From a virus, in the IMG/VR virus record IMGVR_UViG_3300013132_000070, positions 1-50,494 of that record: a stretch of DNA of 50,494 nucleotides. One strand, 5' to 3'. Positions 5,171 through 48,222 of this stretch are shown in pieces (the first letter of the stretch is position 1; the number at the start of each line of letters is the position of its first letter). The position numbers and the translations under genes are program-made. A model generated the notes under the pieces. The model ran no database searches and was not told where the DNA came from. It saw nothing but the letters and a program-made list of their open reading frames with translations.

Positions 5171-5312
5171 GAGATACTCACAGTAGTAATTTATTATAAT
5201 CAGCCTTAATCTATTAGTGGTCACACCACCTGATGCGCTGACGCTTCAATACACTCTACAATAAGTGCCATAGCATCTTGTACATCCTTTCTTCTTTTAT
5301 TGGAGCCCTTTT

Positions 5313-6053
5313 ATGTCTGACACCACCATCCCAATAGATCATAGCTCAGATGCCCGCAGCATCCTCATGTCTCAGGAAAAGATCCAGGCCGTCTTGCATC
5401 CGACTGAGAGCCCGGTACCCGAATCCGACGTACTCACGTCGAATGAGCTGAATGCCATCCTGGCGGGCGACTACGCCGATACCGATACGGGTGCCGATAC
5501 CGAAGGTCTGAACGACCTCGTCATCCGTGCGGCCGATGTGCCGCCCGAAGCCCAAGCGCTGTTCGATGCCGGTGATAACGCCGCCGCATTCGAGTACCTC
5601 CGCGACCACGGTTATGCCTCGACCCCAGCGGACGATGCGGCCGAAGAAGACGCTGCCGAACCCATTTATTGGGAAGACTTGGAAGACTTGTACAAAAGTG
5701 TCGGTGAAGCCATCGGCGGTACGGCCCTCGGGGTACAACAAATTCTGGAAGTCCCAGGTCTGCGGGAGCATGTCAGTTACGCCAATGAGCTCGCCGTCGC
5801 CGTCAATGGCCTCAACCGCGACCTCAACCATTTCGCTGACAAACTCGTCAGCATCCACGCCCAACACCTGAACCATACCGGTGAAATCAACGAACAAAGC
5901 CAATACATCGAATACCTCAGTATCGGCGATCAATACCGCACCGTCGCTGAAGAGTTTATGGCCATCACGGCCCCGGCCCTCATGACCATCAGTGAACATA
6001 CCGGCGCTGCCTTGCAAAACACCACCCCGACCTCAGAAGAAGCCCATGTCTAA
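5313..6053 (+). CDS. Unknown acidic protein
   Basis: 246 residues, very acidic (Asp/Glu/Ala-rich at about 35-120), with predicted helices in the C-terminal half ('LNRDLNHFADKLVSIHAQHLNHTGEINEQ'-type heptads, in pieces). It opens a short plus-strand block; TTGGAGCCC lies just before the ATG. Its last codons overlap the next gene's start by 8 nt, so the two are coupled. Composition suggests a scaffold-like or packaging-associated role, but no family is recognised. Confidence 0.6.
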   Translation: MSDTTIPIDHSSDARSILMSQEKIQAVLHPTESPVPESDVLTSNELNAILAGDYADTDTGADTEGLNDLVIRAADVPPEAQALFDAGDNAAAFEYLRDHGYASTPADDAAEEDAAEPIYWEDLEDLYKSVGEAIGGTALGVQQILEVPGLREHVSYANELAVAVNGLNRDLNHFADKLVSIHAQHLNHTGEINEQSQYIEYLSIGDQYRTVAEEFMAITAPALMTISEHTGAALQNTTPTSEEAHV

Positions 6054-9720: not shown

Positions 9721-9872
9721 GGTTTATTCAGAATGGACGGCAGTTGTGCTAACCACCAGTGCAAGGTCATGGTTGGCTGTCGTGTCCTTAACTTCCATTC
9801 TTTTAAATGGACCTGCAGCAGTTGAATGGGTGACAGCAATGCTGTATGTATGGCATGTATCAGTGTAGTCAT
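9717..9872 (-). CDS. Small 51-residue protein directly after the helicase
   Basis: An easily missed gene: ATG at 9872 overlaps the helicase TAA as TAATG, and its TGA overlaps the GTG of the next gene. The product begins MTTLIHAIHTALLSPIQLLQ and contains a basic/aromatic middle (WKLRTRQP, LHWWLAQL). Position and perfect coupling on both sides support expression. Function unknown; it may be a helicase cofactor. Confidence 0.5.
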   Translation of the reverse strand: MTTLIHAIHTALLSPIQLLQVHLKEWKLRTRQPTMTLHWWLAQLPSILNKP

Positions 9873-11443: not shown

Positions 11444-11535
11444 GATAGGCTCCTTAGTAATCATAAATCTATACCATCGTAACAGTCCGGTAAAAAATAA
11501 TGCCACTCAGGAGCCATCACATCTCCTCAGTAACC

Positions 11536-14431: not shown

Positions 14432-16708
14432 TCATCCTTTTGGCTTAAAGGTGGTAAAGTACGGAGAGGTGACTGGCAATGTCGGCGGTGTGTACTTCAT
14501 ACGCCACCCTCCACACATGGCGACATGGCGCACCAATCCCAACGGTTTGGACCCGCCCAATGGCACCTGATGGCGATCGATCGCCATTGGGATATTGGTC
14601 GGCTGGGCCGCCGTCAAGATGGTCCAGACCACATACCGGTGCGTAGTCGGGCTGGTACTGCGGTCTAACATCTCTGCAATTGCAGCCCGCCCACAATACC
14701 CAGCAAAGATACGGCCTTCCGATTCTCCAATAGTACGAACTGGACTATTGCGATGCGGAAAGGTGTACTTCTGCGCCCGAGTGATAGGACTTAGTATTCC
14801 GAAATGTTGCAACGTACCAGAAGCTACTGAGGACAGCACGTCCGTGATCTTGTCCAATAGCATCATGTACACCGGCGCGATTCGAACCGGGTATTCCGTC
14901 GTGACCCGGTGACCACTATAACCAACATATGTCACTGGCCCGTATGTCGGTTTATACTCTTGTTGCAACCGACGGGCCACATCAGAGATCTCATACTCGT
15001 GATTCGTCGGGTAAAAGATCGAACCGCCATTCTCGACCAACCGGGCCAGGTGTTCAATTTTGTCGTCCAACCCCAACCCAGCGTAGTGTTGGTACTGTAA
15101 CGGTGAGATGATCTGGTAAAATCCCATTCTGTACCGGTAGGCATTATCGAATTGGTCGGGCGCTTGCTGGGCCAATGCCCGTACAGCTGGTAATGCCGTA
15201 GCATACGGTTGTTTTGGTATGCCTAAGATGGACCGAACAGTCTTCGTGACGTCTCGTTCGCAGGCTCCAAAGAACATTTCATACAACCGCCCCAAGTTCA
15301 TACGACTAAACGTTGTCTCGGCACCAACGACAATATCGGCCCGGTTACCAGCCTCATCGACCGGCATATTTTCCGGTTTCTCAATATAACAGATCACCCC
15401 TTTACCACCTTGACTGCACGTCAGTTTATACCCGATCGTCGGCTGTACTGTATACTCGATAGTAAGCTCGACCCGATAATCATCCAGTGGCACTTTACGA
15501 TACACCAAGTTTAGCTTACTGTCCTTCTTGAGTTCTTTACCGTTTTTGCTATCCTTACGACTGTGGTTACGGCCCAACACGGCCATGGCTTCTACCAACA
15601 ACCTGTGCAATTCTGGCTTTAGAATCACTTCCGCTTCCCCGTACTTCCTACGGCGTTCTTCTCGAATAGATTCATAAGCCTCTAACAACTCACGATAGAA
15701 CCGTTTCAAGGCGCGGGTGTATTTGTTCATGGCTGACATGACCCCTTCTGGCGTCTTGCTTGGTTCATTGTCGTCGTGGTAAATTTTGATATCTACGATC
15801 TTGCCAGATTTTATTTCTACCGGGTGTCCATCTTTTTCTCCCTGTATAATCGACCCCGGCCCACGAACATAGATCGCGTCGTCAAAAATGAAGTCAGGAG
15901 TCATGCAGTCGGTGATCGATGTCAAAACCGGACCCAAGTCCGATTCATAATTACGCAACATGACCAAAATACCGTCATCTCGGACCATCTGGCCGATCTC
16001 TGGGAACGGTTGATAATGGCCGGCATGGCCATATAAGTTCAATGGAAAGGCATGATTGCCAAATTCTACGACCCGTTTATCGTAGACTTTAAACCGGAGT
16101 CGCGGTAAGACATCTTCACTGATAAGGATACCATCTTCAGCCACAGCCGGATGCGACATGCCGGCGACATTCAATTCGATGCCAAATTTATAGCCACCGT
16201 TCTCACCGATCGAAGGGCTATTAGCAAAGATTGTATCCTTCTCGATATAGTCCGTGCCGGCCGACTTATACAGACCAGGCACCAGGCGTTTAAACTCAGG
16301 AGTCAACTTGTACTCAAACCCAAAGTACTGATGGTACGAGGCATGCCGTGGAATGACCATGCACCCAATCTGCGGTAACCGGTTGACATTCGGATCATTG
16401 GTCACCTCTTCGTAAATCACCACCATCTCAGGATTTTCCGGAATCGCATCCACGTCGATGCGAGTCGGGTAACGGTCGATCATGCGGAGTACCCGCATAT
16501 CGCAAGGGGCTTTCTTGTTAAAGACATAGTCACCCATCCGGCATTCTACGCCAGTCTGGATGCGTTTTTCAGTGGAACCTTCAATGACCAAATCCGACGA
16601 CTTGTGGGAGCCGTACATGTAAGCCCTTGAAGCGGAGTTAGTACCGGTGGCGAAGTTAGTCGCTTGTATCCCCAGCAGCTCGGGATAGAGTTCATTTGGT
16701 TTTGTCAT
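14432..16708 (-). CDS. RNA polymerase beta subunit, C-terminal part
   Basis: 758 residues from MTKPNELYPE at 16708, chosen because AAGAGGTCC stands 7 nt before it. Shows the beta C-terminal signature: 'KLTCSQGGKGV' at about 428-438 (E. coli 'MAGRHGNKGV'), 'NMPVDEAGNRADIV' at 447-460, 'FSRMNLGRLYEMFFG' at 467-481, and 'APVYMMLLDKITD' further on (E. coli 'GYMYMLKLNHLVDDK'). This part binds the nascent chain and DNA-RNA hybrid beside beta'. The beta N-terminal partner is not in the window. Adjacent to the larger beta' C subunit and in the same order as the phiKZ nvRNAP genes. No intron was seen here, although the phiKZ equivalent has one. Confidence 0.88.
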   Translation of the reverse strand: MTKPNELYPELLGIQATNFATGTNSASRAYMYGSHKSSDLVIEGSTEKRIQTGVECRMGDYVFNKKAPCDMRVLRMIDRYPTRIDVDAIPENPEMVVIYEEVTNDPNVNRLPQIGCMVIPRHASYHQYFGFEYKLTPEFKRLVPGLYKSAGTDYIEKDTIFANSPSIGENGGYKFGIELNVAGMSHPAVAEDGILISEDVLPRLRFKVYDKRVVEFGNHAFPLNLYGHAGHYQPFPEIGQMVRDDGILVMLRNYESDLGPVLTSITDCMTPDFIFDDAIYVRGPGSIIQGEKDGHPVEIKSGKIVDIKIYHDDNEPSKTPEGVMSAMNKYTRALKRFYRELLEAYESIREERRRKYGEAEVILKPELHRLLVEAMAVLGRNHSRKDSKNGKELKKDSKLNLVYRKVPLDDYRVELTIEYTVQPTIGYKLTCSQGGKGVICYIEKPENMPVDEAGNRADIVVGAETTFSRMNLGRLYEMFFGACERDVTKTVRSILGIPKQPYATALPAVRALAQQAPDQFDNAYRYRMGFYQIISPLQYQHYAGLGLDDKIEHLARLVENGGSIFYPTNHEYEISDVARRLQQEYKPTYGPVTYVGYSGHRVTTEYPVRIAPVYMMLLDKITDVLSSVASGTLQHFGILSPITRAQKYTFPHRNSPVRTIGESEGRIFAGYCGRAAIAEMLDRSTSPTTHRYVVWTILTAAQPTNIPMAIDRHQVPLGGSKPLGLVRHVAMCGGWRMKYTPPTLPVTSPYFTTFKPKG

Positions 16709-16712
16709 AATA

Positions 16713-16770
16713 GGACCTCTTGTAGTGATAACATGGAATGAGCACAGTAGGCTCTTTTTTAGTATATAAG
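16713..16770 (-). promoter_or_regulatory. Promoter-like motif and shared leader of RNAP beta C; divergent region
   Basis: Minus strand reads CTTATATACT (16770-16761), then TTATCACTACAAGAGGTC ending at 16713, then ATG at 16708. The leader is identical over 18 nt to that at 8959-8976. The TATATA core is nearly palindromic and also lies 25 nt before the plus-strand gene at 16789, so it may serve both directions. Confidence 0.5.
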
Positions 16771-16788
16771 ACACTAGGGTTTTTCAGT

Positions 16789-18641: not shown

Positions 18642-20147
18642 CTAAATGTAAGGGTTAATGCCCTGAGGGGCTTGACTGTGATGCGCGACGGTATCGTTGA
18701 CATTATTGACCAAACGCTCCATGTCCATCACTAATGCATCAAATTGCAACTGGTTTTGTGCAATCACCGGAGTAAACAAGTTGTCACAAAACGACGGAGC
18801 TACGTACTGTATGGCGGGTTGACCTGCCAGTGACAGACTGATCCACGTCTCCCCGAAGATATCAGCTCTTATTTCCAGTTGATACATCTCCTGGTTGTTA
18901 AACGTAAAGTCCTGGATTACCTCTTGCTCCAATCTCCTAATGAAACGATCGTAGTAGTTACGCATATCGATGCCAGTTAACGATTTGGCATCGATGAGCA
19001 CCGTCGACATTTGTCCACTGATATCGTAGTTGGTGGAACGCAGAATGATTTTACTAATGAGTAAGTCCATCATCAGGGCCGGGATGGCTTGCATCAAGGA
19101 TGTTGCCACCACCGTACACCTATCCGATCCCGTCCAGTAGCTCGTCAATCCCGAATGGTGTTGGGCAGCTTGTTGAGCAGGCCCATTGACAATGAAATTC
19201 ACCATATTGCGAGCATTGTAATCTAGCTCCTCTAACTCGGCAAAGGTGAATTGGTACCAAGCTGCTTGTTGACGGCGTTCTCCCAACCAGCGAATGAAAG
19301 GATTCTCACTGATGGGGGCTTCCATCACTTGCTCGCGTGACTTACTCAATACATCGGCATTACCGTATCCAAAATCAGCCATCTGAGCCCCGTAGTAAAA
19401 TCCATCAACCACACGTGCCAAATACTGCGCCGGTAGATTATTACCTCGGTTACTGCGTTGGGGATCAGCACGCAAGGTCGTCCTGGAATCGTGGTAACTC
19501 GGTCCGCCGTATTGCGTAAACTGATCAGCGGCCCCGCGCAAGTAGTTCGATTGCATCCCGCTAAATACGTCCTGTGGACGCATCAGGTGAGACTGTCTTT
19601 GCTGGGTAATCGACTGCCAGGTCGGATCGGCGACGACCTGATATGACTCCAGCATACGGTCGACACTGCTGTACCCCATGGCATTGTAGTTGACAACCGC
19701 TTTACCGACTGCCACAACAGAGTTGATGATAAACACCATGTGGGGGTCGATATGACCCTGCAGTGTGACACCAGGGTAATTGGTATAGCCCTGGATGTAG
19801 TAAACGACTTCAGATCCAATACTGTATTGTGCATTTAGCTTCAATACAAAGCGAATCCGTCGTTCGGACCATCCTTGCGGGATAGCGACTTCCAACGAAG
19901 GATCGACACTGGCGACAGGGGCTAGGATGTTACTGGCAACACCAGCCATGACATGCCCTGAGATGGAGGCTGTACCGAGCTGATCGACTCGGTTGAGTAT
20001 CGTGTTCAGAGACCCAGCATCAAGGTGTGACTGGTAGGGCCGGTGGTACATGGGGTTGTAACTACCGGTCTCTACCATGATCAACTGTTCCACCGCCATC
20101 TTGGTGACGTGGTGGGTAGGGCCATTGGCATAAGGAAGTGGATTCAT
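18642..20147 (-). CDS. Unknown 501-residue protein in the RNAP cluster
   Basis: 501 residues, no membrane segment, rich in Tyr, Gln and Asn with stretches such as 'NYNAMGYSSVDRML' and 'FIRRLEQEVIQDFTFNNQEMYQLEI' (in parts). Located between the 517-residue candidate nvRNAP subunit and the PGY-tailed protein, 32 nt from the former. By order it corresponds to phiKZ gp69 (inference). No catalytic motif seen; a structural or transcription-associated role is possible. Confidence 0.55.
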   Translation of the reverse strand: MNPLPYANGPTHHVTKMAVEQLIMVETGSYNPMYHRPYQSHLDAGSLNTILNRVDQLGTASISGHVMAGVASNILAPVASVDPSLEVAIPQGWSERRIRFVLKLNAQYSIGSEVVYYIQGYTNYPGVTLQGHIDPHMVFIINSVVAVGKAVVNYNAMGYSSVDRMLESYQVVADPTWQSITQQRQSHLMRPQDVFSGMQSNYLRGAADQFTQYGGPSYHDSRTTLRADPQRSNRGNNLPAQYLARVVDGFYYGAQMADFGYGNADVLSKSREQVMEAPISENPFIRWLGERRQQAAWYQFTFAELEELDYNARNMVNFIVNGPAQQAAQHHSGLTSYWTGSDRCTVVATSLMQAIPALMMDLLISKIILRSTNYDISGQMSTVLIDAKSLTGIDMRNYYDRFIRRLEQEVIQDFTFNNQEMYQLEIRADIFGETWISLSLAGQPAIQYVAPSFCDNLFTPVIAQNQLQFDALVMDMERLVNNVNDTVAHHSQAPQGINPYI

Positions 20148-20179: not shown

Positions 20180-21733
20180 TTATTTCCAAGTATGACTACC
20201 AATCTCGATGACCAAATCGGCTAAGTCGTTACGGATGCTGTACGGGATGGTCAAGCGGTACGCGGGGTTCGGGCCCGTTGCCAACTCCACCATCTCAGTA
20301 TCTGCCGACAGTTTCCAACTGTAGACAGACAGGTTTTCGACAATGATGTCGATGCTGTGAACAGCCATGTTCACCGGTTTTTGACCGCTACGACGACTGC
20401 CTATATTTTTCATGTACGGGTACAGTTCGTCAAGACGGGCACGTTTCTCCTTGGACAATTGGGCTCGTGAATCCATCCCAGAGACGCGTAATTCATCAGA
20501 TGCAATATCTGCATAGCTAGTAACCAGCATGGCCAAAAAATGATATCCACGAGCCCATAATACCGCTTGTGCTACCCCCAATAGGTTTACAATGGAAGGT
20601 TTGCTGAGGTACAGGATTCCTTGAGGAGAGATGACCGGCTTCATCACCCATCGCAAAAGAGTGATTTGGGGATCCCGAATCGGTATCGTGTTGAGCATTT
20701 GAACAGAAGACAAGCTGCGCTCCAACAACTCCATGGTCATGTTCTGACTCAGGCGAAAAGCCAAAGCTGGCAAATTCGAGACCGAGTATTCCAATACCGT
20801 AATGTCACCGATGGAGATGTTATGCTTGTTTTTATACCGCTCCAGTACCGACAATTTATCGACCGAATCCATGCTGCCGCCATCATCGTTCTCTTTATTC
20901 TTGATGCTGGTATCGCCTGCCGTATCGTCCGACTTGATCTGTTGCGTCACAAACTTCCAGACACTCGTGACTAGGTTGGCTTCCGGATTCTCGCCCGTAC
21001 CGCTAATGTCACCGACACATAAACGACGTACAAAGATGCGGGCAATCATCCAGTTAACAAAGTCTTCGCTGGAGATGCCTTCGATGATGTTATCTTTGTC
21101 TTGATTGTCATCCCCAATTGCCAGATCGACGTATAGCTTCAGTTTTTGAAATGGGTCTGAATGCAAGATCTGGCTTTTACTGCACAGTTGAAAGGCATAG
21201 TACTCTTTGAACTTTGTACCGGTCTCCCTTTTGGTGCAAGCGATGAACTCACCCCACACCGGGATCAGGGTACGAAAGATCACCGACAACGTAACCAGAC
21301 CCACGTACTCCCCTTTGGTGTAGGTCTGTTCCCTAGATGTCTTCTTATTCTCAGCGGGTTTGTATTCCTCAGAGAAATTACAAGGAATGACGACATCGCT
21401 CATAAACACCAGCCAATGTCTCATTCGCTCATATTCGTGGAAGTTCAGTAATTCCGCGACATACCGGTTCAAATCCCGAACATAGATAAGCATCTCGAAG
21501 TCGGTTGTCAGTAGGTCGTAGATTTTGCGATACAGATCAAAAACATAGGCATGGTCTTGTAGCGATAACGTCGCCCAAAACGCGTTGAGTTGTTCAAACA
21601 CATCCCGGTCTCGAAGAGCATCCATGCCAAAGCTATTGACTCTAAACTCTAACGATTCAGACGGACCATGGCTGATCCGTACTGACGGTTTGAGGGTCGG
21701 GTCGTGCAAGTTTACAATTTGTGCTGTTAACAT
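20180..21733 (-). CDS. Possible fifth subunit of the non-virion RNAP (phiKZ gp68-like)
   Basis: 517 residues, close to the length I recall for phiKZ gp68, the non-canonical nvRNAP subunit needed for promoter recognition. Order here is 517, 501, 468, beta C, beta' C, matching phiKZ gp68, gp69, gp70, gp71-73, gp74. The protein is mixed helical with a charged, Asp/Lys-rich linker at about 260-300 ('DDTAGDTSIKNKENDDGG', shortened). The identification rests on length and gene order only; no motif proves it. Promoter-like TATATACT lies about 50 nt upstream (21781-21789). Confidence 0.42.
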   Translation of the reverse strand: MLTAQIVNLHDPTLKPSVRISHGPSESLEFRVNSFGMDALRDRDVFEQLNAFWATLSLQDHAYVFDLYRKIYDLLTTDFEMLIYVRDLNRYVAELLNFHEYERMRHWLVFMSDVVIPCNFSEEYKPAENKKTSREQTYTKGEYVGLVTLSVIFRTLIPVWGEFIACTKRETGTKFKEYYAFQLCSKSQILHSDPFQKLKLYVDLAIGDDNQDKDNIIEGISSEDFVNWMIARIFVRRLCVGDISGTGENPEANLVTSVWKFVTQQIKSDDTAGDTSIKNKENDDGGSMDSVDKLSVLERYKNKHNISIGDITVLEYSVSNLPALAFRLSQNMTMELLERSLSSVQMLNTIPIRDPQITLLRWVMKPVISPQGILYLSKPSIVNLLGVAQAVLWARGYHFLAMLVTSYADIASDELRVSGMDSRAQLSKEKRARLDELYPYMKNIGSRRSGQKPVNMAVHSIDIIVENLSVYSWKLSADTEMVELATGPNPAYRLTIPYSIRNDLADLVIEIGSHTWK

Positions 21734-21841: not shown

Positions 21842-22531
21842 TTAGAAGGGCACGTCGTTATCAAACATCAAACCACCGCCTTTACCCCCTTCACTGTCGA
21901 AGCCGGTGGGTTTTAGACGGGTCGGAGTAGCCAGTCGATTGCCGAACTCCCTAGGCGCAGGTGGGTTTTGCAAATACTGCGTCAGCATGTGCGCGTAAAC
22001 TTGGCGTAGCAGGTTCATATGCGCCAGCGCCGCTAACCGAGAAGCCTCCGATTCCGAGAAGGGTGTGCCATCTCCTTTTAGCAGTTTATGCCAATCGGAC
22101 ACCTGAAAAGTAAACTTAATCTGCGGTCGTCCTTTGGCGGTAACCGAGATCCAGATCATACCGTCGGTATCTTTACCGACCCAGACTTGGGAGTTGAGGA
22201 CGCGTTCACCGGTGGGTTTATTGTCTTCATAACGCTGCGTGTAGCAGTCCATGACTTGTTTCATTTCTTCCTTAGAACGGATGACCGTGTCGAGTTGGGC
22301 TAGAAAGACTTCAAAAACTTCCGGCAACATACCGGCGTAAATAATGCCTTTGGCCGTGGTGTCGTTCGGGTCATTGGTGAAGACGGTGATTCGGGGGTTG
22401 CCGTCACGAAAACCAAATGACAGTTTAGCGCGGACGCCTTGTACCCCGGGAGTTGGTGTAAATAGCTGCAGTTTGGTAAAGTCAAGGATTTTGATCGGGC
22501 CTTGATCCCGGTCGTTGGCTACTTCGGCCAT
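21842..22531 (-). CDS. Candidate single-stranded DNA-binding protein
   Basis: 229 residues. The first about 170 are beta-rich ('QGVRAKLSFGFRDGNPRITVFTND', in parts; 'GMIWISVTAKGRPQIKFTFQ'), compatible with an OB-like fold. The C-terminus runs through a Gly/Pro linker to FDNDVPF, the same acidic tip with terminal Pro-Phe as in bacterial SSB (DDDIPF), which docks partner proteins. ATG at 22531 has CAGGAGAACTCCT before it. It lies among genes of RNAP, Mre11-like nuclease and other replication functions. Alternative: an unrelated phage protein with a convergent acidic tail. Confidence 0.55.
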   Translation of the reverse strand: MAEVANDRDQGPIKILDFTKLQLFTPTPGVQGVRAKLSFGFRDGNPRITVFTNDPNDTTAKGIIYAGMLPEVFEVFLAQLDTVIRSKEEMKQVMDCYTQRYEDNKPTGERVLNSQVWVGKDTDGMIWISVTAKGRPQIKFTFQVSDWHKLLKGDGTPFSESEASRLAALAHMNLLRQVYAHMLTQYLQNPPAPREFGNRLATPTRLKPTGFDSEGGKGGGLMFDNDVPF

Positions 22532-23540: not shown

Positions 23541-24671
23541 TTATAAAACACGCCGTAGTATGTTATCCAGTAATGTCTGCTGTACAGTATCACAGTCATG
23601 ACGGCTCTGTATACGGTCCAGTAGTAAGATAGGCAAATTATCTGCCGTGAATGTAATACCTCGGTATAACGTCGCGGGGTCAACACTCAACGAAGTGGTC
23701 TCCTCGAATATTACATCGGTATCTGCCAGCTTACTCCAGTGTATGAATGGAAACTGTTGACGAATGCTGTCAAAGGCCAATAAAGCCGGATGGTCTTTGG
23801 GACCTTTCAATCGCACGTATGCCTGACGTGGGAGTTTGCGGACCTTGCGTTCGATCCAGACGATGCTGGCTTCGAGTGTCATGGGCTTTAACGTCCACGT
23901 TAAAAATGGTTTAGCCCGTTCATTCTCGATGAACCGTGCCGTATACTGGCCATCGGGGTATAAGGTACATTCTACCCCACCTTTCGCTTCTTCTTCACCG
24001 TGGGCCAGCCTATCAAACGACCCTTGTGCGATGATTCGATTCGAGGTGGAGTATGTGTGGACATGGCCGATGGAGATGACATACCGCACGATCTTCAAAT
24101 AGTCGGATTCCGTGTGGACACACGGCATCATCGCTGCTACCGGTAATTGGTATTGAAACATCCCATGCATCACCGCTACATCGACTTGCGTAAGACCGCA
24201 GTGCTCTAACGTCTCGATCACCTGCCGATACGTCTTGTCTGCGGTATCACTCCATTCGTCTGGCACATACAGGATCGACAAGCCCCAATCATCCATCTGC
24301 TCGATGCTGAGAGTATTAATGTACTTACAGTCCACTGGGATCGCTAATGTACGAACGATCGTCAGAAAGATCTGTGACTGACCCCAATCGTGCCTAGGAG
24401 TCCCTTCTAAGACACGTATTCGAATCCCTGCCTGGGCACACAACTCCAATAACCATGCTACCCATAAACACGCGTCATGCACATCGGACGCCTGAAACTC
24501 CACCAGGCGATCGAATACATCGCCCCCTAGGACTAAGAGGTCTAAAGGACGATCGCGCCGGTATGGCTCTAAGAAAGCCTGTAATGCCGCAATAATCTCG
24601 GGAGTCGTATTGCGGCGATGAAACAAATGTATGTCGCTGATGAACAGACAGCGTTTTTCAGACCTCAGCAT
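23541..24671 (-). CDS. Mre11/SbcD-like metallophosphoesterase (DNA nuclease)
   Basis: 376 residues from MLRSEKRC. Metal-site motifs in order: SDIHL (about 12-16), GGDVFD (about 50), a variant EGTPRHD in place of GNHD (about 88), MHGMFQY (about 165) and GHVHTY (about 195), all as in calcineurin-like phosphoesterases of the Mre11/SbcD group. C-terminal about 150 residues would form a capping domain. No SbcC/Rad50 partner is in the window. It starts 14 nt inside the preceding gene. It probably resects or cleans DNA ends in recombination. Confidence 0.82.
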   Translation of the reverse strand: MLRSEKRCLFISDIHLFHRRNTTPEIIAALQAFLEPYRRDRPLDLLVLGGDVFDRLVEFQASDVHDACLWVAWLLELCAQAGIRIRVLEGTPRHDWGQSQIFLTIVRTLAIPVDCKYINTLSIEQMDDWGLSILYVPDEWSDTADKTYRQVIETLEHCGLTQVDVAVMHGMFQYQLPVAAMMPCVHTESDYLKIVRYVISIGHVHTYSTSNRIIAQGSFDRLAHGEEEAKGGVECTLYPDGQYTARFIENERAKPFLTWTLKPMTLEASIVWIERKVRKLPRQAYVRLKGPKDHPALLAFDSIRQQFPFIHWSKLADTDVIFEETTSLSVDPATLYRGITFTADNLPILLLDRIQSRHDCDTVQQTLLDNILRRVL

Positions 24672-25257
24672 CGTAGTCGATATCGTCAGCAGGTTGATAT
24701 GACGGGATATTATTAACGACTGTCGTGACTTTGTTGTACCGTTGCATGATAGTACCCCAACGCTGTTGGTATTCATCCGGTAAGCGTGCATTTTTCAACA
24801 TCACCTGGGCCTTTTGAAAATAAGCTGCCTCCAGGTAGCGTTCACCCTGAATCGGTATATTCTGACGATGCAAGGCCGCTTGCTCCAGGACATCTTTCAT
24901 GGGCATACCGTTTGGCCGTGTCTGCACGTCTAAGAACTGCGTTGTCATGATGGGCGGGACGCGAAACAGTTCTTCTCGGGTGACATCGTCGATGACCCGT
25001 ACTTCAGCCGCAGGCGTGCCGGCGATGGCGATCCATTGACCGACGACCGTATTGTCTTCAATGGGTATTTCACCGGCAAAATAAGGCAAAAAGTATTCAC
25101 GGAAAATGCTTTCCGGTACCCGACCTAATACGACATCGTTTTCGATACAAAGGGCGGTATGCACTTTCGACATGTCTTTGGACATTTGTGCCATTTGTTG
25201 CTTGTACATCCGTTGTTCCAAAGACTCTGAGATTTGTTGGGGGGTAGTGTCGCTCAT
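24658..25257 (-). CDS. Unknown virion-type protein
   Basis: 199 residues from MSDTTPQQISESLEQRM at 25257, after GAGAG; the upstream ATG at 25353 overlaps the previous gene and lacks a ribosome site. Contains 'TVVGQWIAIAGTPAAEVRVIDD' (20 residues maximum shown: VGQWIAIAGTPAAEVRV) and 'ELFRVPPI', a pattern I associate with virion proteins of large phages. Last codons overlap the nuclease gene. Confidence 0.5.
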   Translation of the reverse strand: MSDTTPQQISESLEQRMYKQQMAQMSKDMSKVHTALCIENDVVLGRVPESIFREYFLPYFAGEIPIEDNTVVGQWIAIAGTPAAEVRVIDDVTREELFRVPPIMTTQFLDVQTRPNGMPMKDVLEQAALHRQNIPIQGERYLEAAYFQKAQVMLKNARLPDEYQQRWGTIMQRYNKVTTVVNNIPSYQPADDIDYDAEV

Positions 25258-26613: not shown

Positions 26614-26632
26614 TTCAGTACTAGTATATGTC
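26614..26632 (-). promoter_or_regulatory. Promoter-like CATATACTAGTACT motif
   Basis: Minus strand GACATATACTAGTACTGAA lies about 20 nt before ATG 26601, inside the 3' end of the glycosylase gene. It matches the CATATACT motif found upstream of other genes and decides the start of the small gene. Confidence 0.4.
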
Positions 26633-27013
26633 ATTGAAAACTACTTTACTTGAAGCGGTCGTGGGTCTCGTAGCGTAAACGGCATGTGCACGCTGTCTAC
26701 ACTCGGAACAGCGACGTAGCAGTAACCGTAGATTACGCCATCGGTTAATACAGTACGCCTGCTGTTCAATCGGTAAGTAAGAAAAATCAGGCTGGTGTAA
26801 CGGTGACTGATGGTGATAGCCCCGTGTGACCATTTCCTGTGCCAAGGCATCATGCCGTGCTTTGTAACTGAGCGGTTCCATGGCATTGCCGGCGATACGT
26901 CCAGTGATGGATCGACGATGGATCCAATCGTTTAAAAACTTATGCAGCTCACCATGCTCCCCGAGGAGATGACGCCGGCATAATATCTTAGGATCCAACA
27001 TCCACATGCGCAT
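26621..27013 (-). CDS. Pyrimidine dimer DNA glycosylase (T4 endonuclease V family)
   Basis: 130 residues. 'MRMWMLDPKILCRRHLLGEHGELHKF' (shown in part: LCRRHLLGEHGELHKF) with an 'RHD.LA.EM..RGY.H.SPL' segment is typical of the phage pyrimidine-dimer glycosylases, whose N-terminal residues line the active site. The enzyme removes UV-induced dimers and nicks the AP site. It lies just downstream of the intron-bearing RNAP beta' gene, behind its terminator. Start 27013 has AGGA about 12 nt upstream; MWMLD at the second Met is possible. Confidence 0.8.
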   Translation of the reverse strand: MRMWMLDPKILCRRHLLGEHGELHKFLNDWIHRRSITGRIAGNAMEPLSYKARHDALAQEMVTRGYHHQSPLHQPDFSYLPIEQQAYCINRWRNLRLLLRRCSECRQRAHAVYATRPTTASSKVVFNDIY

Positions 27014-27109: not shown

Positions 27110-29466
27110 TCACGCGTCAGGCAATGCCTCAAACCGTGCGATCTGATCGGGTGTAAACTGATACCCCCGTCGCGAAGACACAAAGTTCGAGATCGTCGCC
27201 ACGACCGGTTTAGGCAGGGAGATATTGCCGGATATCTCCCGTGGCCGCGTCAGCTCAAACACATTCTTGTGCGGTGCGAGCCCATACCACTGATCAGCCA
27301 TGTAGTGATCGATGGCTAAGCTCACGTTCATTTCATCCCCATCAAACCTAGTGTCCACACTCGTACTGAGTGCCGGTGTGCAGTGACACCCGCCCGTACT
27401 TTCATACGGGAGCAGACTATCTCTTTACCCTCGCCCTCTCTCGTGAAGAGGCGGTCGGGTACTTCCCACTCGACCCCGCTATCCGTAGCAGGGCTCCACC
27501 TTGCTGAAGGGTTAGTCGTTGAACCTTACCCATAGCAGGATCACTGCCGTAGGGTCTTGGCTGCTGATTGCCCAATCCATAGTCTTTTCGACCAATATCA
27601 CGCTCACCGTTTCCAGTCACGTTGTAGGGCCTATGGCTCTTAGGGGTTTCCAGCAATTCAGGAAGGCTCCTCACCCGCCTTACGACGAGGAGGGACATTA
27701 AGAAAAGTAGCTTTTGAATATGTTTTCACCCGTAGTTATGCAAACACTTGGTTTGCGTATTATACTACTATGCAATAAAACAAATGGATAAAAACATAAA
27801 AAACTACCCGTTTCTTACACCTTTGTCAGCATTGGGGGCCTTAGTGATCAAGATCGACAATGATAGGGTGTTATCCATCACGTCTGTCTTGAATTTCGTG
27901 ATATACACGCGTTGTGCTGCCAATGTCCGTGTGCGTCCGTCACACCGGTGTGCGCTGACACCCGCCCGTACTTTCATACGGGAGCAGACTATCTCATCAT
28001 CCTCGTGGTGTCTTGTGGACCCAGCGGTCGGATGCTTCCCATTTCGCCCGATCATCCATGGTCAAGCTACACTTAGTCGTTGAACCTTACCCGTAGCAGG
28101 ATCACTGCCGTAGGGTCTTGGCTGCGCGATTGCCCAATCCACTGTCTTTTAGCCAATATCACGCTCACCGTTTCCAGTCACGTTGTAGGGGCAGTGGCTC
28201 TCAGGGGGTTCCCGCAATTAGAGAAGTTATGCAGCCATCCTTTCAGATGACAGGGGCCTAAGTAGTTCGTCTTTACCATGGAGGTATACCTGTAAAAAAG
28301 ACGAGCTATACTATACCAGACCCGGAGAGGAGAGAGGGATTGCGCTGTATCAAACAAACTATTTTACGATCCGGCGATTCGTCTAACAACTCGTTGAGTA
28401 GTTTATCCAGCAACGGGTGGTATTTGTAGACATGTCCGTACAGCATCCCGATGGCATCGTTTTGCGCGATACCCAGTTTCATCAGTTTGTTGAGCAGATG
28501 GGGTTGAAAAGCCGTCAGTCCAACCGACCACGGCACATGAATCTCATCGTAGGCATGATCGTTCGTTAACGATGAGATCACGGCACGGAACGAGAAATGA
28601 GAGCGCGTACCGAAGACATGCTTGCGGAAGATGCCGTGTTTACTACTCAGGCTCGTTTTATAGAAGTTGTAGTAAAACTCGGACAGTTTGGTGAGGGCTT
28701 TGACGGTCCGCCGCTCTTTGGTCCGAAGTGAATGGTCGGACAGCGGATTGTCGATCCCGGCGATCATCATGATCGCATCGATGGCTCCGATATGGATCGC
28801 GTCGATCCAGCGGCCGGTGTAGTTCTGCTCCAGGATGAGCAGGGATTTGTTCGGCAGCGGGATGTACTGACTGAAAATACGGTCGGGGTAATCCTGCATC
28901 AAGTGGTACAAATAGTCCGTCTTGACCCGACGACTTTTCGGCATCTTGAAGTCTTTATGGGTGAACAACAGTTGCGTGATGTCGTAGAAGTTGTTGACGA
29001 AATAGTTGTATCCGCGTTCAATGCCCATGTCAGCGAGTTCGTTGATAATCGTGGGTTGTTTGACATTCGGGCGGTATGTAGAATCACAGATCCACTGAAT
29101 GACTGAATAACCGGATTTCTTGAACCGCTGATTGAGCATGTGCCAAATCGTCGGGTTAATCAGGGAAGCAACTTTCTCCGGAGCTCTGAACCAGACGAGT
29201 GGTTCGATATCCTCATTAATGATGGATTTGACGGGTTTGTGGCAGTATTCACACAGGACATCAATGGCGAACTCCCCTTTAGTACGACCACAATGGCAGG
29301 AGGGCAGTATGGATATCATGTCCGACGAGTAGTGAGTCATGATCAAGTTGCGGATGTAATCCCGGTTATCTTCAAAGACATTGCCGAGATCATTGATGAT
29401 AATGGGTGGTGACCGGAGTTGAGTGACCAGCTCATTAAAGTTGACAAGTTCTTGGTAGACTGGCAT
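27110..29466 (-). CDS. RNA polymerase beta' subunit, N-terminal part, split by two group I introns
   Basis: Three exons, 489 residues after splicing. Exon 1 (29466-28330, 379 aa): zinc motif CHCG...CEYC (C57, C59, C72, C75), switch region 'HGIFRKHVFGTRSHFSFRAV' (E. coli 'GRFRQNLLGKRVDYSGRSV') and 'RNPSL' (E. coli 'NRAPTL'). Exon 2 (27920-27825, 32 codons): AAQRVYITKF...ITKAPNAD. Exon 3 (27346-27110, 78 aa): FDGDEMNVSLAID to the stop. Joined, exons 2 and 3 rebuild the metal-binding NADFDGD motif. Spacing between RNPSL and NAD fits E. coli to one residue. All junctions are phase 0; exact 5' splice sites are uncertain by a codon or so. Adjacent to chimallin as phiKZ gp55 to gp54, so probably nvRNAP. 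Confidence 0.87.
27347..27824 (-). ncRNA. Group I intron 2, between NAD and FDGD codons
   Basis: 478 nt, no endonuclease gene. Group I core on the minus strand: AATTGCTGGAAACCCC (P element), CAGCAGCCAAG then CCTACGGC (R/P7-side element), GTTCAACGACTAA (S element), GAGATAGTCTG, and P9 hairpin CCCGTA/TACGGG. A P2-like stem CTCCTC/GAGGAG precedes the core. The intron ends in G at 27347. Candidate P1: exon ATGCTGAC pairs with GTTTGCAT (27745-27738) with one mismatch, giving C-G at the splice site instead of the usual U-G. Confidence 0.87.
27921..28329 (-). ncRNA. Group I intron 1, after the RNPSL codons
   Basis: About 409 nt, no endonuclease gene. Same core: AATTGCGGGAACCCCC (28220-28205), GCGCAGCCAAG near 28130-28119, GTTCAACGACTAAG (28085-28072), GAGATAGTCTG (27995-27985), P9 hairpin CCCGTA/TACGGG. 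Core segments of 20-35 nt are identical to intron 2, so the two are recent copies; the 5' parts differ, with a long stem CGTCTTT.../...AAAGACG here. Ends in G at 27921. The P1 helper sequence was not found and the 5' site may shift by one codon. Confidence 0.85.
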
Positions 29467-29490: not shown

Positions 29491-29853
29491 TTAGGCTATA
29501 TAGTCATGCAAACGACGTTTTTGTTGAGAATAGATTTGCATGATACGACGAGCAGTGATGTCGTACAGACGACAGATGGTCTTGTATGGAATGTCGGCTA
29601 AGACGGCGCGGTAGATGTGAATGTTACGAGCATAGGTATCGTAACGGCGTTTATTCAGCGTATAACTATCCGGAGTCGTCACATAATGGAGTTCTCGCAG
29701 ATGAGCTAATGTCTGTCGGTAGGCTTGGATCAGGATCGGATCAGCCGGATCATCCGGGTCTTCTAGATGAATGAGAGCCGATTCGATATGGGTCATCGCT
29801 TTTCTCAAGTGGGCGACGGTGTGGTTATTATGAAGTTCGAGTGTGGCGGTCAT
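29491..29853 (-). CDS. Small HTH-like protein between chimallin and RNAP beta'
   Basis: 120 residues. C-terminal 'IPYKTICRLYDITARRIMQI' followed by basic residues has the spacing of a helix-turn-helix (helix 'YKTICRLY', turn 'DIT', recognition helix 'ARRIMQIYSQQ'). The N-terminal half is acidic and helical. It may be a small transcription regulator of the neighbouring nucleus/RNAP genes; homology not established. Confidence 0.5.
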   Translation of the reverse strand: MTATLELHNNHTVAHLRKAMTHIESALIHLEDPDDPADPILIQAYRQTLAHLRELHYVTTPDSYTLNKRRYDTYARNIHIYRAVLADIPYKTICRLYDITARRIMQIYSQQKRRLHDYIA

Positions 29854-30015: not shown

Positions 30016-31905
30016 TTAATAGCGGTAGTAGGACGGTTGGTAACCTGCCACCGGGGCCTGATAGCCGTAGTCACGACCCATAAAGGTCTGACCGGCTGCC
30101 ATACCTGGTGAGAGCAGGGCATCATTGACGAAGTTACCGACACCGCGTTGTTGATTGAACTCAGCAGACAGGGTCGGTGTCTGGATGCGGGTAGACAGAC
30201 CGGCTTCTGAACAACCGCGGATCAAGGCGGCTGTGAATTCCGTACTGAACGTTATACGCTGTGCAAAGCCGGTGAACACGGCATTGTCGTGCGTATATCC
30301 TGATATCATCTTCCGTCGTTCCGCCAATCGAGAAATCAGCGGTATTTCCGTGCGGTAGAACGTATCTGACCACAGCCGTATCTGCATCGGGTCTTTATCT
30401 CCAATGAGATTGGCGACGGCCAGGTAGTCAATTGCCCGAATATCCCGCTTAAGGCCGTTACTGTCGGTGTAATAGCCCATGTGGATACGGTTGTTCACGT
30501 CCGTGAACATGGCCCCGGACGTAGCATTGAAGTGCCGGCTGAACAACCCGTTAGTCAAGCTGTCGGCCGCTTTCATGATCACTTCCTGTGCATTGGGATT
30601 GCCATTAGCCGCTTCTTTAAAGACGGCCAAATACCAGGTCTGAGGCCCACATTCCGGTACATCCAGGGAGATGACCAGACCCGGCCGGAACAGGCGGGTG
30701 ATCAGGGCTCCCAGATCCGGCAGCTGAAAGCCATCGGACTTGGTGTCGATCCGCGTGCCAAACCCCCGCTGGTCATTTTCCAAGTTGGCATCGATGTTAA
30801 GTGCACCGATGTCGTACATGTCAATGCCTTGGGTATTAGGCGACGGCCGCAGGGCCTGAATCCAGTTATTGTCATCCCGGACGGCCGTCGCTGTCGCCAA
30901 CCACAACAGAATGGATGATGGAGTATAACTGAAGTTGGACGCAATGTCCGTTACAATGAGACGTGCTACATATCGCTGCGTCGGTACATTGTACTGCTGA
31001 GGTTGATAAAAGTTGTACCCGGTGACAGGGGCCAACGGAGCGTAGATCACATCGACAAAACCTGACAGAGACGAGATGGTCTGTTCCCGATTGCCGGCAT
31101 TTAGGGATTGTGCCTGCCGCTGATCCTGCGAAGGATTGCGCTGTGAGGTAAACCTGACGATGATGTCCGACCGCACGGGTTCACCGACGGCATTGTCCAG
31201 CTCCTGCCGGCTGAACGAGACATTGCAGATCAGACTGCTGTCATAGCTGGCTGATGCCAAGTTGATGTCCATGAAGCCCGGTTGGTGAATTTCAAGTTCT
31301 ACCGTAGCTGCCATACCGGCGCTTAGTGCTAACCTTTTCACCAGATTCTTATCTTCCGGGTTGAAGCCGGATGGAATCACGCAGGCATCAGCCATACGGT
31401 AAGGGCCTACCGGGAAGTGTTGTTTCACCTTTTCCAACACTCTTTTATAGAGTTCATCATCCATCGCATCGCCGGCGACCCGTATTATTTCCACCTGACG
31501 GTTGTAGACCGTTTGGTATATGGCACTAGGGCGTTCCCCAGTGGCTTCTATGATCAGTGTGTGGTAGGCGACACCTAAGTCAGCTACATTCTTCAGCTTC
31601 ACGCAAACCACAATGGCCGAATAGGCCAATGCCGTATCGACTGTGTTGTCGATGTTGATGAGTGCTATCTCAAACTTGGGATCGGCCTCCTTGTAAATAT
31701 CCGCCAAGGTCTGATGCATCTTGGTCAGGTATTCACTGCCCACGCCGGGCGATATAGGGGCGGCAAACAGACCGCCTGCATGAAACGACCACGGCTGACG
31801 GCCGGTAGATGCCGGTGTCGTCGGAGTCTGAGGCGGTGTGGGATGGATGTAGCCGGTCGTACCGGTAGCTGGGGTCGGACGTATGTTTTCGTCTTTAATG
31901 GCCAT
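30016..31905 (-). CDS. chmA: Chimallin-like phage nucleus shell protein
   Basis: 629 residues, the length of known ChmA proteins (about 610-640). Disordered Pro/Thr-rich N-terminus (residues 1-35), two long mixed alpha/beta parts, and a flexible Gly/Tyr-rich C-terminus ending PSYYRY, consistent with ChmA lattice arms. Neighbours support it: a PhuZ gene in the window, and next to it the RNAP beta' N gene, as phiKZ gp54 beside gp55. ChmA assembles the proteinaceous lattice around phage DNA and excludes host nucleases. A 459-nt leader precedes it and a strong terminator follows, expected of a very abundant transcript. No motif proves it; it could be another abundant structural protein. Confidence 0.72.
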   Translation of the reverse strand: MAIKDENIRPTPATGTTGYIHPTPPQTPTTPASTGRQPWSFHAGGLFAAPISPGVGSEYLTKMHQTLADIYKEADPKFEIALINIDNTVDTALAYSAIVVCVKLKNVADLGVAYHTLIIEATGERPSAIYQTVYNRQVEIIRVAGDAMDDELYKRVLEKVKQHFPVGPYRMADACVIPSGFNPEDKNLVKRLALSAGMAATVELEIHQPGFMDINLASASYDSSLICNVSFSRQELDNAVGEPVRSDIIVRFTSQRNPSQDQRQAQSLNAGNREQTISSLSGFVDVIYAPLAPVTGYNFYQPQQYNVPTQRYVARLIVTDIASNFSYTPSSILLWLATATAVRDDNNWIQALRPSPNTQGIDMYDIGALNIDANLENDQRGFGTRIDTKSDGFQLPDLGALITRLFRPGLVISLDVPECGPQTWYLAVFKEAANGNPNAQEVIMKAADSLTNGLFSRHFNATSGAMFTDVNNRIHMGYYTDSNGLKRDIRAIDYLAVANLIGDKDPMQIRLWSDTFYRTEIPLISRLAERRKMISGYTHDNAVFTGFAQRITFSTEFTAALIRGCSEAGLSTRIQTPTLSAEFNQQRGVGNFVNDALLSPGMAAGQTFMGRDYGYQAPVAGYQPSYYRY

Positions 31906-34677: not shown

Positions 34678-36804
34678 TCAGTATCCCATTTCTGAGATGA
34701 GCCATTGTTTCTTACAGTAAAAGCCTAACGACTCCAGTACCAATCGATAGCCATTGGTCAGTTCCAATACGACCCGCTTAGTATCCATGATGGCTTTAAG
34801 TTCTTCAGGGATGCCGTGCGATTGGACATGATCGAGTGGAATGAGAAACATACCGATCGTCGTCTTTTTGTTTAACCGCATCCACGCTTCTAACCGTGAC
34901 GCTAATTCACGATCTACAATAGCCTGAAGCCATTGTTTGACTGCCGTCTTATTTTCCAGCTTAGTGGGAATTTTAATGGCGACATACGGTGGAGGATTCA
35001 CCGAGCCGTACTTCGGTGCAAAGACTTCTTGCCACAATGTGTAATGTTGAAACGGAGATTTGTCAGGTGGCAGGACGTACCCGGCTGCATCTTTGATCAT
35101 CATGCTACGGCAATACTCTTCATCACCTTGCAGCAATGACAATGTGATCGACCGTTCCACATCCCCGATACTGCGCAATAGTTTATACAACGAGATTTTC
35201 TGACCACTAGCTACGGTGTCCAAGATTCCTCGAATAGTCGCATGAGTATTTTTAATCAGACTCACTGGACTTGCGCTGCTGATGAGGTGTACTCCTTTGG
35301 TATCGTACTCTGGTTCGGCATAGACATTACCTTCCTGGTATATGGTGCGAGCTGCATAATGTTTAGCTTTACTAGTGAGCATAAAGGCATCCCAGATGTA
35401 TTCCCCTTTTACAGCCAAGACATACAAATACTCTTTGGGAGTATTCATATTGGCTGACAGGATGGCTAAGATGTGGGCCATCGATTGCGTGGTCAAATAC
35501 GCGACAGCAGCTGCGATCCCGAGGGAGGTCGCATTGACGGCGCTGTTGCCCTGATACCACTCCACCCACTTATCGACCGAATAACAGGAACTGTCAGTAT
35601 CGCTGAGCGGGACGACCCGCCGTAGCATGTGAGGGATCTGGGCGATCGAGGCCGGCAGATTGTCCGTGAGAAAGAAGATGTCGATCAAGTCACGGTATTG
35701 GCCGATGGTATCGTAGATGTGATCAGCCGTTCCTACAATAGCATCTAGTACACCGGCCTCCGCCATCTTATCGTAGTTCTTACCCATGCCTTTGATCTGC
35801 ATCGCACAGACCTGGTGGGAGAATAACACAATGTCTTCGTTGAGGGTCTTGACCCTAGCTAAGCTATTCGGTTCAGCCGTGGTGACGATGGTAGCCAACG
35901 TCTGTAAAAATGTCCGTACACAGTCTGAATTAAAGAGGCGAAGATGATAGAAATCACCGGTGTACACAAAAGCCGCCCGCTGTAATGGATCTAGCGTCTC
36001 GACATACGTCCGAATCGTCTGTAAATACCGACCATCTCGCCAATACAGATCGGTAGAATACTGAATGACCTGCATCATCTCCTCGACTGTCGGGTAATGT
36101 AAGGCGTATCTTGTCATCACGGCTGTCATCGCCTCTCGATCGGTATGAGTGATCGTAGAAATGATGTTATTAATGGCAATATCGGGCGACCAATAATGGC
36201 GGTTACCAGCCAGCATGCGTTCATTGGTGGCATTACAAAGTGAGACGACAGTGCGAGTGATAGAGGTCAGCGTGCTGTGTGCAGTAGGATTGTACAGCAC
36301 CGTACCTTCCGTACCAAATGATCCCGACATGGCATTATTATAGATTTTCTTTTTGCTCTGAACGTTTTCCTGATATGTATGTTCAGCAAGATTACCTTCA
36401 GCCTTTGCCTGGTGAGATTTCTTCTTAGCGATCGAACGGAGCTTTTTGTTCTTTTCTGTAAAATTCACCAATATAGATCGGCGCATCTCAGGGTGCAGAT
36501 AGACAGTAAAGCTTGGGGCTAGAATGTAGCCGTTGCGGATGACGTTCTGAATGAAGTGACTGAGGGGTGTCTCTGTCACATGGTTGTCTCCATTGTCAAG
36601 TCGTTCATAGTGACGGATGACGGGATCGCGCATGTTAGGAAACGCCTGGGTCTTCAGCGCATTCAGAATATAGGCACGGCATGCATCGAGTGGATCACCA
36701 GTCATGCTGTTTAAGTAATGAGTCATTTGATCGATATACTGGCCGATGGGATTGATCTGGCGGGTATAGGACTCAGTCGCTTTAAGGAAAGGATTTTGTG
36801 ACAT
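34678..36804 (-). CDS. Family B DNA polymerase, C-terminal (palm/thumb) half
   Basis: 708 residues. 'ILAPSFTVYLHPEMRR' (about 94-109) leads into motif B 'KKKIYNNAMSGSFG' (151-164; family 'K..NS.YG') and 'YNPTAH...SITRTVV', then, after an insertion of about 240 residues instead of roughly 60, motif C DTDSS (402-406). Motif A (D..SLYPS) and the 3'-5' exonuclease are absent, so they should be on another gene, as in split phage DNA polymerases. The downstream part would be thumb. Single gene with terminator; ATG at 36804 follows a region of a ribosome-site-like GGCTACACC. Alternative: a polymerase with very unusual motif A. Confidence 0.75.
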   Translation of the reverse strand: MSQNPFLKATESYTRQINPIGQYIDQMTHYLNSMTGDPLDACRAYILNALKTQAFPNMRDPVIRHYERLDNGDNHVTETPLSHFIQNVIRNGYILAPSFTVYLHPEMRRSILVNFTEKNKKLRSIAKKKSHQAKAEGNLAEHTYQENVQSKKKIYNNAMSGSFGTEGTVLYNPTAHSTLTSITRTVVSLCNATNERMLAGNRHYWSPDIAINNIISTITHTDREAMTAVMTRYALHYPTVEEMMQVIQYSTDLYWRDGRYLQTIRTYVETLDPLQRAAFVYTGDFYHLRLFNSDCVRTFLQTLATIVTTAEPNSLARVKTLNEDIVLFSHQVCAMQIKGMGKNYDKMAEAGVLDAIVGTADHIYDTIGQYRDLIDIFFLTDNLPASIAQIPHMLRRVVPLSDTDSSCYSVDKWVEWYQGNSAVNATSLGIAAAVAYLTTQSMAHILAILSANMNTPKEYLYVLAVKGEYIWDAFMLTSKAKHYAARTIYQEGNVYAEPEYDTKGVHLISSASPVSLIKNTHATIRGILDTVASGQKISLYKLLRSIGDVERSITLSLLQGDEEYCRSMMIKDAAGYVLPPDKSPFQHYTLWQEVFAPKYGSVNPPPYVAIKIPTKLENKTAVKQWLQAIVDRELASRLEAWMRLNKKTTIGMFLIPLDHVQSHGIPEELKAIMDTKRVVLELTNGYRLVLESLGFYCKKQWLISEMGY

Positions 36805-42143: not shown

Positions 42144-43121
42144 TTACAGTATCAATCCGTGTTCATTCAGCTCCTCATCCAGATGGATCTTTTTCGTGAT
42201 CGCACTGGTAGTATGCTCATCGATTTCTTTGATCAGTTTTGTCAACCGATCGATGACGCTGGGGAAATACCCGGCGACTGTCACGATGTGGAGTGGCAAG
42301 TCGACCGTGATGGCATCTTTGAGTTTATCGTCGATGTAGCCCGTGGCACGATAGCCTACCGGGATCCCGATCGCTGCATCGGTCTGGGCATCGGAAATGG
42401 AGACTGCCGAGATCACATTATGACCCCGAGCGATCTCGACATTCTTGGAGTAAAACTCCAGATGCGACAGTTGGGGTTCGATCGCCGTCACTTTCTGATA
42501 ATTCAAAAAGTTCGACAGATCCGCCGAATCCAGTTCGTGGTTCTGTCCGGAAAAGATCGCAGCCAGCAACACGATGATGGTCTGGACTTTCTGATCCACG
42601 CTACCCCGCGGTGTCGCCGAGCTGTTCTCGTAGTAGACCATGTTGACCGGCTTTTCTACTTTACGGGCACAGGCTTCGTAGCCTTTAAGGGTTTTCATGG
42701 TGTTATCGACTTCTATGCGGCTGTCGGTACTGCCAATTGTGATGACGATTAGCTGTGCGTCTTTGGTCATTAGTTGACCGGCGACGATCGGACCGATGAC
42801 TGAGCCAGAGCCCCCAGAGGCGCTGTGAACTATGACATTGATATCCCCGGGCTTGTACCGATGTAAGATTTCTTTCGCCCGCTCAGCGATCGCTGACGCA
42901 TTGCTATCACGCTTCTTGCCAGACCCATCTCGATCTTCGATCAAATACACCCGCTCATCCGAGATATCCAAGCCAGCTCTCTTGAAATTACTGGCACTCG
43001 TATCTATAAATACGGGTTTAAAGGCGGCAAAGCCGTCGCTGGGCCGATCGGCATGCCGCATCAGCTGCGACACGATGTTGATGCCGGCCCCACCAGCTGC
43101 GTAGATATTCATGGTATTCAT
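42144..43121 (-). CDS. phuZ: PhuZ-like phage tubulin
   Basis: 325 residues. Tubulin/FtsZ features: 'AAGGAGINIV' (8-17) for the nucleotide-binding N-terminus, the T4 glycine loop SASGGSGSVIG (100-110; tubulin signature GGGTGTG variant), a T6/H7 region 'DSADLSNFLNYQKV' and an acidic C-terminal tail 'DEELNEHGLIL', as PhuZ tails that mediate filament contacts. Short for an FtsZ, as PhuZ is. In nucleus-forming phages PhuZ filaments centre and rotate the phage nucleus and carry capsids. AAGAGGTACC precedes ATG 43121; MNIYAAGG at 43112 is an alternative start. Confidence 0.92.
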   Translation of the reverse strand: MNTMNIYAAGGAGINIVSQLMRHADRPSDGFAAFKPVFIDTSASNFKRAGLDISDERVYLIEDRDGSGKKRDSNASAIAERAKEILHRYKPGDINVIVHSASGGSGSVIGPIVAGQLMTKDAQLIVITIGSTDSRIEVDNTMKTLKGYEACARKVEKPVNMVYYENSSATPRGSVDQKVQTIIVLLAAIFSGQNHELDSADLSNFLNYQKVTAIEPQLSHLEFYSKNVEIARGHNVISAVSISDAQTDAAIGIPVGYRATGYIDDKLKDAITVDLPLHIVTVAGYFPSVIDRLTKLIKEIDEHTTSAITKKIHLDEELNEHGLIL

Positions 43122-48109: not shown

Positions 48110-48148
48110 GGGTATATACCTAGAAACAAAGGATGGAAATATCGGTCA

Positions 48149-48162
48149 GGCACAGTATATGC
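48149..48162. promoter_or_regulatory. CATATACTGTG motif between 48109 and terL
   Basis: Minus strand GCATATACTGTGC about 45 nt before ATG 48109, and 65 nt before terL on plus. It matches the recurrent motif, which is nearly palindromic at its core. Confidence 0.4.
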
Positions 48163-48222
48163 GACTGTCCTCTTTTTCAATCCAGGCATGGTATAGACGT
48201 TTTAATCCATCGAGAGCTCCTT

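Follow-up and report, generated by a model that had tools for sequence, protein, structure and literature searches.

The DNA analysed here, called the window below, is a 50,494-bp fragment (virus record IMGVR_UViG_3300013132_000070). At positions 30016-31905, a sequence-only reading had proposed a 629-residue protein to be the chimallin ChmA; the open reading frame exists, on the minus strand, a point that reading had left unmentioned, and the structure prediction and HMM search it called for both returned chimallin. Residues 83-627 matched the Pfam family PF25677, "Phikzvirus chimallin family" (E=8e-37, 127 bits for a cutoff of 27), the ORF matched PHROG 4795, 'nuclear shell protein' (E=1e-89), and a sequence search of the PDB returned chimallins, including those of 201phi2-1 and phiPA3 PhuN, with E-values of 2e-26 (7sqt) to 9e-24; a search of NCBIfam gave no match. 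By tblastn, 114 phage records were recovered, the best being gp382 of Burkholderia phage FLC9 (40.9% identity over 90%), and the nearest ChmA relative in IMG/VR, contig L004, is 57% identical. An AlphaFold2 model built from 18 relative sequences had a mean pLDDT of 76.4, with 470 residues at a pLDDT of at least 70. Residues 54-578 were well modelled except for three short loops, and the termini were disordered (53 N-terminal and 51 C-terminal residues with pLDDT below 50); it is the N- and C-terminal regions that make the lattice contacts in known chimallins. Foldseek matched the model to nine chimallin/PhuN chains (E 4e-33 to 3e-30, target-normalised TM 0.78-0.85, the latter for 7sqv) and, besides chimallin/PhuN, to nothing with E below 0.1, the next match having E=0.17. 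Judged by sequence profiles, PDB sequence matches and predicted fold, which concur, the product of this ORF is chimallin, the major nuclear shell protein homologous to phiKZ gp54. It is hardly credible that the protein is some other virion or structural component beside an RNAP gene, with the real ChmA elsewhere: identity to characterised chimallins is just 21-25%, but the Pfam, PHROG, PDB-sequence and fold searches gave chimallin only, the fold search being the ground on which another identity was rejected, the gene adjoins that for RNAP beta' N, which is also the arrangement in FLC9, 201phi2-1 and phiKZ, and no second ChmA match was found in the 50.5-kb record. The HMM searches did not reassign the gene to a different structural protein: it encodes chimallin itself and is the sole ChmA match in the record.

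Window ORFs were compared with phiKZ gp38-gp80 by blastp. The gene for the spindle tubulin PhuZ (phiKZ gp39, 325 aa) had been placed 10 kb from chmA and was found 10.2 kb away at 42144-43121, on the minus strand. Its product matched PHROG 4733 (E=1e-85), PhuZ structures in the PDB (9pm9, 3zbp and 3r4v, with E-values of 3e-38, 4e-23 and 5e-17), the tubulin GTPase domain PF00091 (4e-8) and the phage C-terminal domain PF22334 (9e-9), and the tubulin G-box signature SGGSGSV could be aligned. The following genes are also on the minus strand: a divergent family B DNA polymerase (34678-36804, phiKZ gp50; Pfam PF20286, 9e-218), an SbcD-like nuclease (23541-24791, gp65; PHROG 100, 7e-43), the RNA-binding protein ChmC (21842-22531, gp67; blastp 31%, E=6e-16), the nuclear import factor PicA/Imp1 (18642-20147, gp69; blastp 25% over 547 columns, E=8e-38; PHROG 3141) and a helicase (9872-11506, gp75; blastp 28%, E=2e-51; PHROG 16). 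The names ChmC and PicA were given to gp67 and gp69, respectively (PMC12571901), and conservation of PicA is reported for every phage known to encode ChmA (PMC11087766). Of the five subunits of the non-virion RNA polymerase (nvRNAP), four are encoded in the 50.5-kb fragment, together with one virion RNAP subunit (2373-3728, minus strand, gp80; PHROG 2962, 1e-103; blastp E=2e-44); the others would fall outside it. Besides beta' N, the nvRNAP genes, again on the minus strand, are those for the fifth, sigma-like subunit (20180-21733, gp68; blastp E=6e-40), the beta part (14432-16774, gp71-73; PHROG 3295, 4e-194), which is here one uninterrupted ORF matching gp71 and gp73, and the beta' C part (12391-14427, gp74; PHROG 3015, 1e-167).

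Read from right to left, the order in the window is PhuZ gp39, DNA polymerase gp50, gp42-like and gp52-like genes on the strand opposite to their neighbours, ChmA gp54, beta' N gp55 and gp56.1, gp59, gp62, SbcD gp65, gp66, ChmC gp67, gp68, PicA gp69, gp70, gp71-73, gp74, helicase gp75, gp77 and virion RNAP gp80. The position of the gp42 homolog is shifted with respect to phiKZ and the remaining orthologs are collinear, so that the window shares its orthologs, in broadly the same order, with the nuclear-shell block of phiKZ and 201phi2-1 (phiKZ gp39-gp80). Given PicA, ChmC and the phiKZ-collinear genes, the window is therefore assigned to the Chimalliviridae, as a genome fragment of 50 kb. The closest isolate is FLC9 (LC667451), which is alike in ChmA (41% identical), in beta' N (46% identical) and in the order chmA, RNAP beta' N, SbcD, gp68, PicA, gp70, gp71-73 and gp74; in this part, on the side of chmA away from PhuZ and the DNA polymerase, FLC9 differs from the window in having an uninterrupted beta' N gene and no orphan gene between it and chmA. 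When 24 kb of the window was compared with phages by megablast, the only match was one of 46 nt, an intron sequence in common with FishSpeaker. Two other genes were noted: 48133-50436 (767 aa) is a terminase large subunit candidate that matched PHROG 2 in two stretches and gave no Pfam or NCBIfam match, its length relative to the best-matched region possibly reflecting an extra domain or an intein, and a small gene directly after beta' N (26621-27013) matched pyrimidine-dimer DNA glycosylase (PF03013, E=3e-11; PHROG 1183, DenV-like).

The orphan that separates chmA from beta' N in the window is a 120-aa ORF (29491-29853, minus strand) that had been described as HTH-like. The order chmA, this ORF, RNAP beta' N was correctly described; the HTH assignment is unsupported by Pfam, PHROG or relatives, as no Pfam family scored above cutoff, the match to PHROG 836, a late transcriptional activator family, was sub-threshold (E=0.064), and no homolog was found among the relatives compared.

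The proposal that these genes form a phage-nucleus set is borne out by the homologs of ChmA, PhuZ, PicA, ChmC, the DNA polymerase and nvRNAP. The established part of this reading consists of the homologies, the fold predicted for ChmA, the set of genes present and their phiKZ-like order, and the phage very probably belongs to the known kind that keeps its own DNA in a protein "nucleus". Shell assembly, positioning, import and shielding from DNA-cutting defences would be carried over from studied relatives. Chimallin (30016-31905, minus strand) would form a shell that encloses the phage DNA as it replicates. Centring of the shell and movement of capsids would fall to PhuZ, import of selected proteins to PicA, and transcription of middle and late genes within the shell to nvRNAP. 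A DNA-enclosing nucleus would keep restriction and Cas enzymes out, as follows from the experimentally studied relatives; PMC11797060 states at family level that DNA-targeting defences (restriction, CRISPR-Cas) are kept off phage DNA. It might be argued that a phage with ChmA builds no functional nucleus here, or that its shell protects the DNA no longer. We consider this very improbable, as the genes for PicA, ChmC, PhuZ, DNA polymerase and nvRNAP have all been kept and the beta' N frame is intact after splicing. As components, ChmA, PhuZ and the nvRNAP genes are already known (reviewed in PMC12908238), and what the window adds is a new, distant member of the Chimalliviridae.

The beta' N gene proved to be more complex than had been described. 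Its 386-aa ORF was correctly recognised as RNAP beta' N in the sequence-only reading, which overlooked two introns and hence took exon 1 for the gene; the ORF spans positions 1-387 of a profile of 478 and is incomplete because two group I introns follow. On the minus strand, the gene consists of exon 1 (28320-29466, 1147 nt, phiKZ gp55; PHROG 2987, 7e-119), intron 1 (27920-28319, 400 nt) inserted at GGG T^CA GCA CAA in the GS codon region (the caret marks the splice site), exon 2 (27825-27919, 95 nt), which ends at the catalytic NAD and was delimited by alignment to the intronless contig L004 and to FLC9/201phi2-1, intron 2 (27347-27824, 478 nt) inserted at NAD^FDGD in the catalytic motif, and exon 3 (27110-27346, 237 nt including the stop, phiKZ gp56.1). 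Both introns gave full-length matches to Rfam RF00028 above its cutoff of 50 bits: 73.9 bits (E=6e-17) at 27965-28304 for intron 1 and 82.4 bits (E=1.5e-19) at 27393-27787 for intron 2, both on the minus strand and both including the P3-P9 catalytic core of group I introns. No homing-endonuclease ORF was found in either. Joining 29466-28320, 27919-27825 and 27346-27110 yields a 492-aa protein with no internal stop, which aligns end to end with the FLC9 homolog (46%) and with that of L004 (77-90% by segment). Between the window and L004, pS is 0.87 for the tail of exon 1 and 0.79 for exons 2 and 3, whereas pN is 0.05 and 0.10, respectively; with pS saturated and pN low, the beta' N exons, exon 3 included, are therefore under strong purifying selection. 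The IMG/VR contig L004 (3300045125_000085) is the nearest relative found and, unlike the window, has neither intron site occupied. In both ChmA and beta' N, this relative (L004/L081) carries frameshifts of a single base, which are probably sequence errors.

Covariance-model matches, the intact joined frame and an intronless allele establish the two introns, and both are predicted to splice. As expected from group I biology, guanosine would initiate self-splicing of the nvRNAP beta' transcript while it is being made, presumably in the early vesicle or in the nucleus prior to export. In intron 1, which ends in G, P1 is canonical: it spans 8 bp (GGGU^CUGG with UUAGGCCC) and places U.G at the splice site; the predicted exon junction is GGGT^CAGCACAAC (...GGGT^CAGCA). 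For intron 2, the predicted junction is GCTGAC^TTTGATGG (...GCTGAC^TTTGAT). This intron also ends in G, and its 5' splice site is atypical, with a C at -1 and no canonical U.G P1: the best P1 at NAD^ is of 4 bp (GAC^A/UGUC), with a loop that is taken up by a long A/U-rich hairpin. Several offsets were tried and only GAC^...^TTT restores NADFDGD. An alternative helix, read by eye, is a 7-bp P1-like pairing with a U.G pair (GGGUAGU^/GCUACUU) accompanied by a 3-bp P10; this site lies 22 nt downstream, and splicing there would retain a stop codon in the mRNA. Translational bypassing of these 22 nt was rejected by eye because no landing codon restores F-D-G-D.

These features leave some room for a reading in which ChmA is real but beta' N is broken, intron 2 being unable to give NADFDGD, so that the genome would be defective or mis-assembled. 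The NAD^ site without a canonical U.G P1 favours it, as does the helix and P10 pointing to the downstream site; however, exon 3 is intact and constrained, a unique join with an omega-G restores NADFDGD, and contig L058, whose exons can be joined to give an intact protein, has an intron at NAD^ as well. We therefore hold a broken gene to be improbable, though less so than the loss of nucleus function considered above. Combined, these results make us confident that the window is a piece of an uncultured nucleus-forming jumbo phage of the Chimalliviridae, with ChmA, PhuZ, PicA and nvRNAP in their predicted roles and with two introns.

The two introns show 81% identity across 290 nt comprising the core and the 3' part, and their 5' target-pairing parts are unrelated; among the loci compared, each is the other's nearest relative. 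Exact searches of IMG/VR with an intron-core 30-mer recovered 18 loci, of which 3 lie in chimallivirus beta' N genes, and with a 31-mer none.

Interruption of beta' N is found in many nucleus-forming phages, mostly without annotation. In phiKZ, gp55, the HNH gene gp56 and gp56.1 (L037:20924-23762) together make up a single beta' N gene that a group I intron divides and that the public annotation shows as three. Whereas this intron lies at N^AD and carries the HNH gene, the window introns are ORF-less and occupy two other sites; conversely, phiKZ gp71-73 carries a group I intron (L037:38392-38618) and the window homolog (14432-16774) is uninterrupted. The N^AD break is shared by phiKZ, Koomba, PA_ZH1 and 124.01, DFDGD^ is interrupted in PA7, OMKO1 and PS119XW, and DFDG^D in FishSpeaker and the IMG/VR contigs L014, L023, L024 and L047; in OMKO1 and PA_ZH1, RN^P is the site of a second intron. 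Insertion points within about 25 nt comprise just before NAD, N^AD, NAD^FDGD, DFDG^D and DFDGD^. In several contigs, two neighbouring introns leave a very small exon: 15 nt over NADFDG in L014 (minus strand, about 2900-5725), about 20 nt over NADFDG in L078 (4150-5165, boundary placed by eye) and 9 nt encoding FDG in L058 (7038-10916). The last gene has four exons of 1140, 114, 9 and 183 nt that join to the intact 481-aa protein, and its three catalytic aspartate codons lie on three separate exons; Rfam matched two of its three introns, and the first is deduced from a 1.7-kb break at RN^P. In a survey of 80 further beta' N loci, 76 were uninterrupted, a count that understates intron frequency because the loci were retrieved partly by the intact NADFDGD pattern.

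That chimallivirus RNAP genes can carry group I introns is in principle already known. In PhiPA3 gp210, such an intron follows conserved aspartates in a conserved RNAP region, and the endonuclease that it encodes plays a part in competition between phages (PMC11620839); that gene encodes virion RNAP beta and the intron carries an HNH homing endonuclease, whereas in the window the introns are ORF-less and the gene is nvRNAP beta'. A small exon between two phage introns is likewise found in the rNDPL of phiNIT1 (PMC11878797), which differs in being a phage of the Bastillevirinae with the introns in a ribonucleotide reductase gene, not in RNAP. In the literature searched, mostly outside subscription papers, no description was found of a multi-site intron hotspot at nvRNAP beta' NADFDGD or of micro-exons there; the original phiKZ genome paper may mention gp56. 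The nvRNAP beta' intron hotspot is under-described. There is in our view an even chance that the nvRNAP beta' NADFDGD motif is a recurrent hotspot with micro-exons of 9-20 nt, that the window introns are sister copies in which the core was kept and the target-pairing 5' domain swapped, and that polymerase production depends on ribozyme splicing in the nucleus before export.

The ChmA, PhuZ and RNAP set adds a lineage with about 41% ChmA identity to the nearest isolate, which helps to reveal constrained residues of the shell. The intron arrangement in the active-site motif of the polymerase is the more surprising and weightier of the two results. In several lineages ribozymes interrupt the active-site codons, so that public gene calls (phiKZ gp55/gp56.1, OMKO1, PA7, FishSpeaker) detach the C-terminal part of the catalytic subunit. 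Nucleus-forming phages need nvRNAP, and a polymerase gene split by introns would serve as a natural experiment on whether an mRNA has to be fully spliced within the phage nucleus prior to its export.
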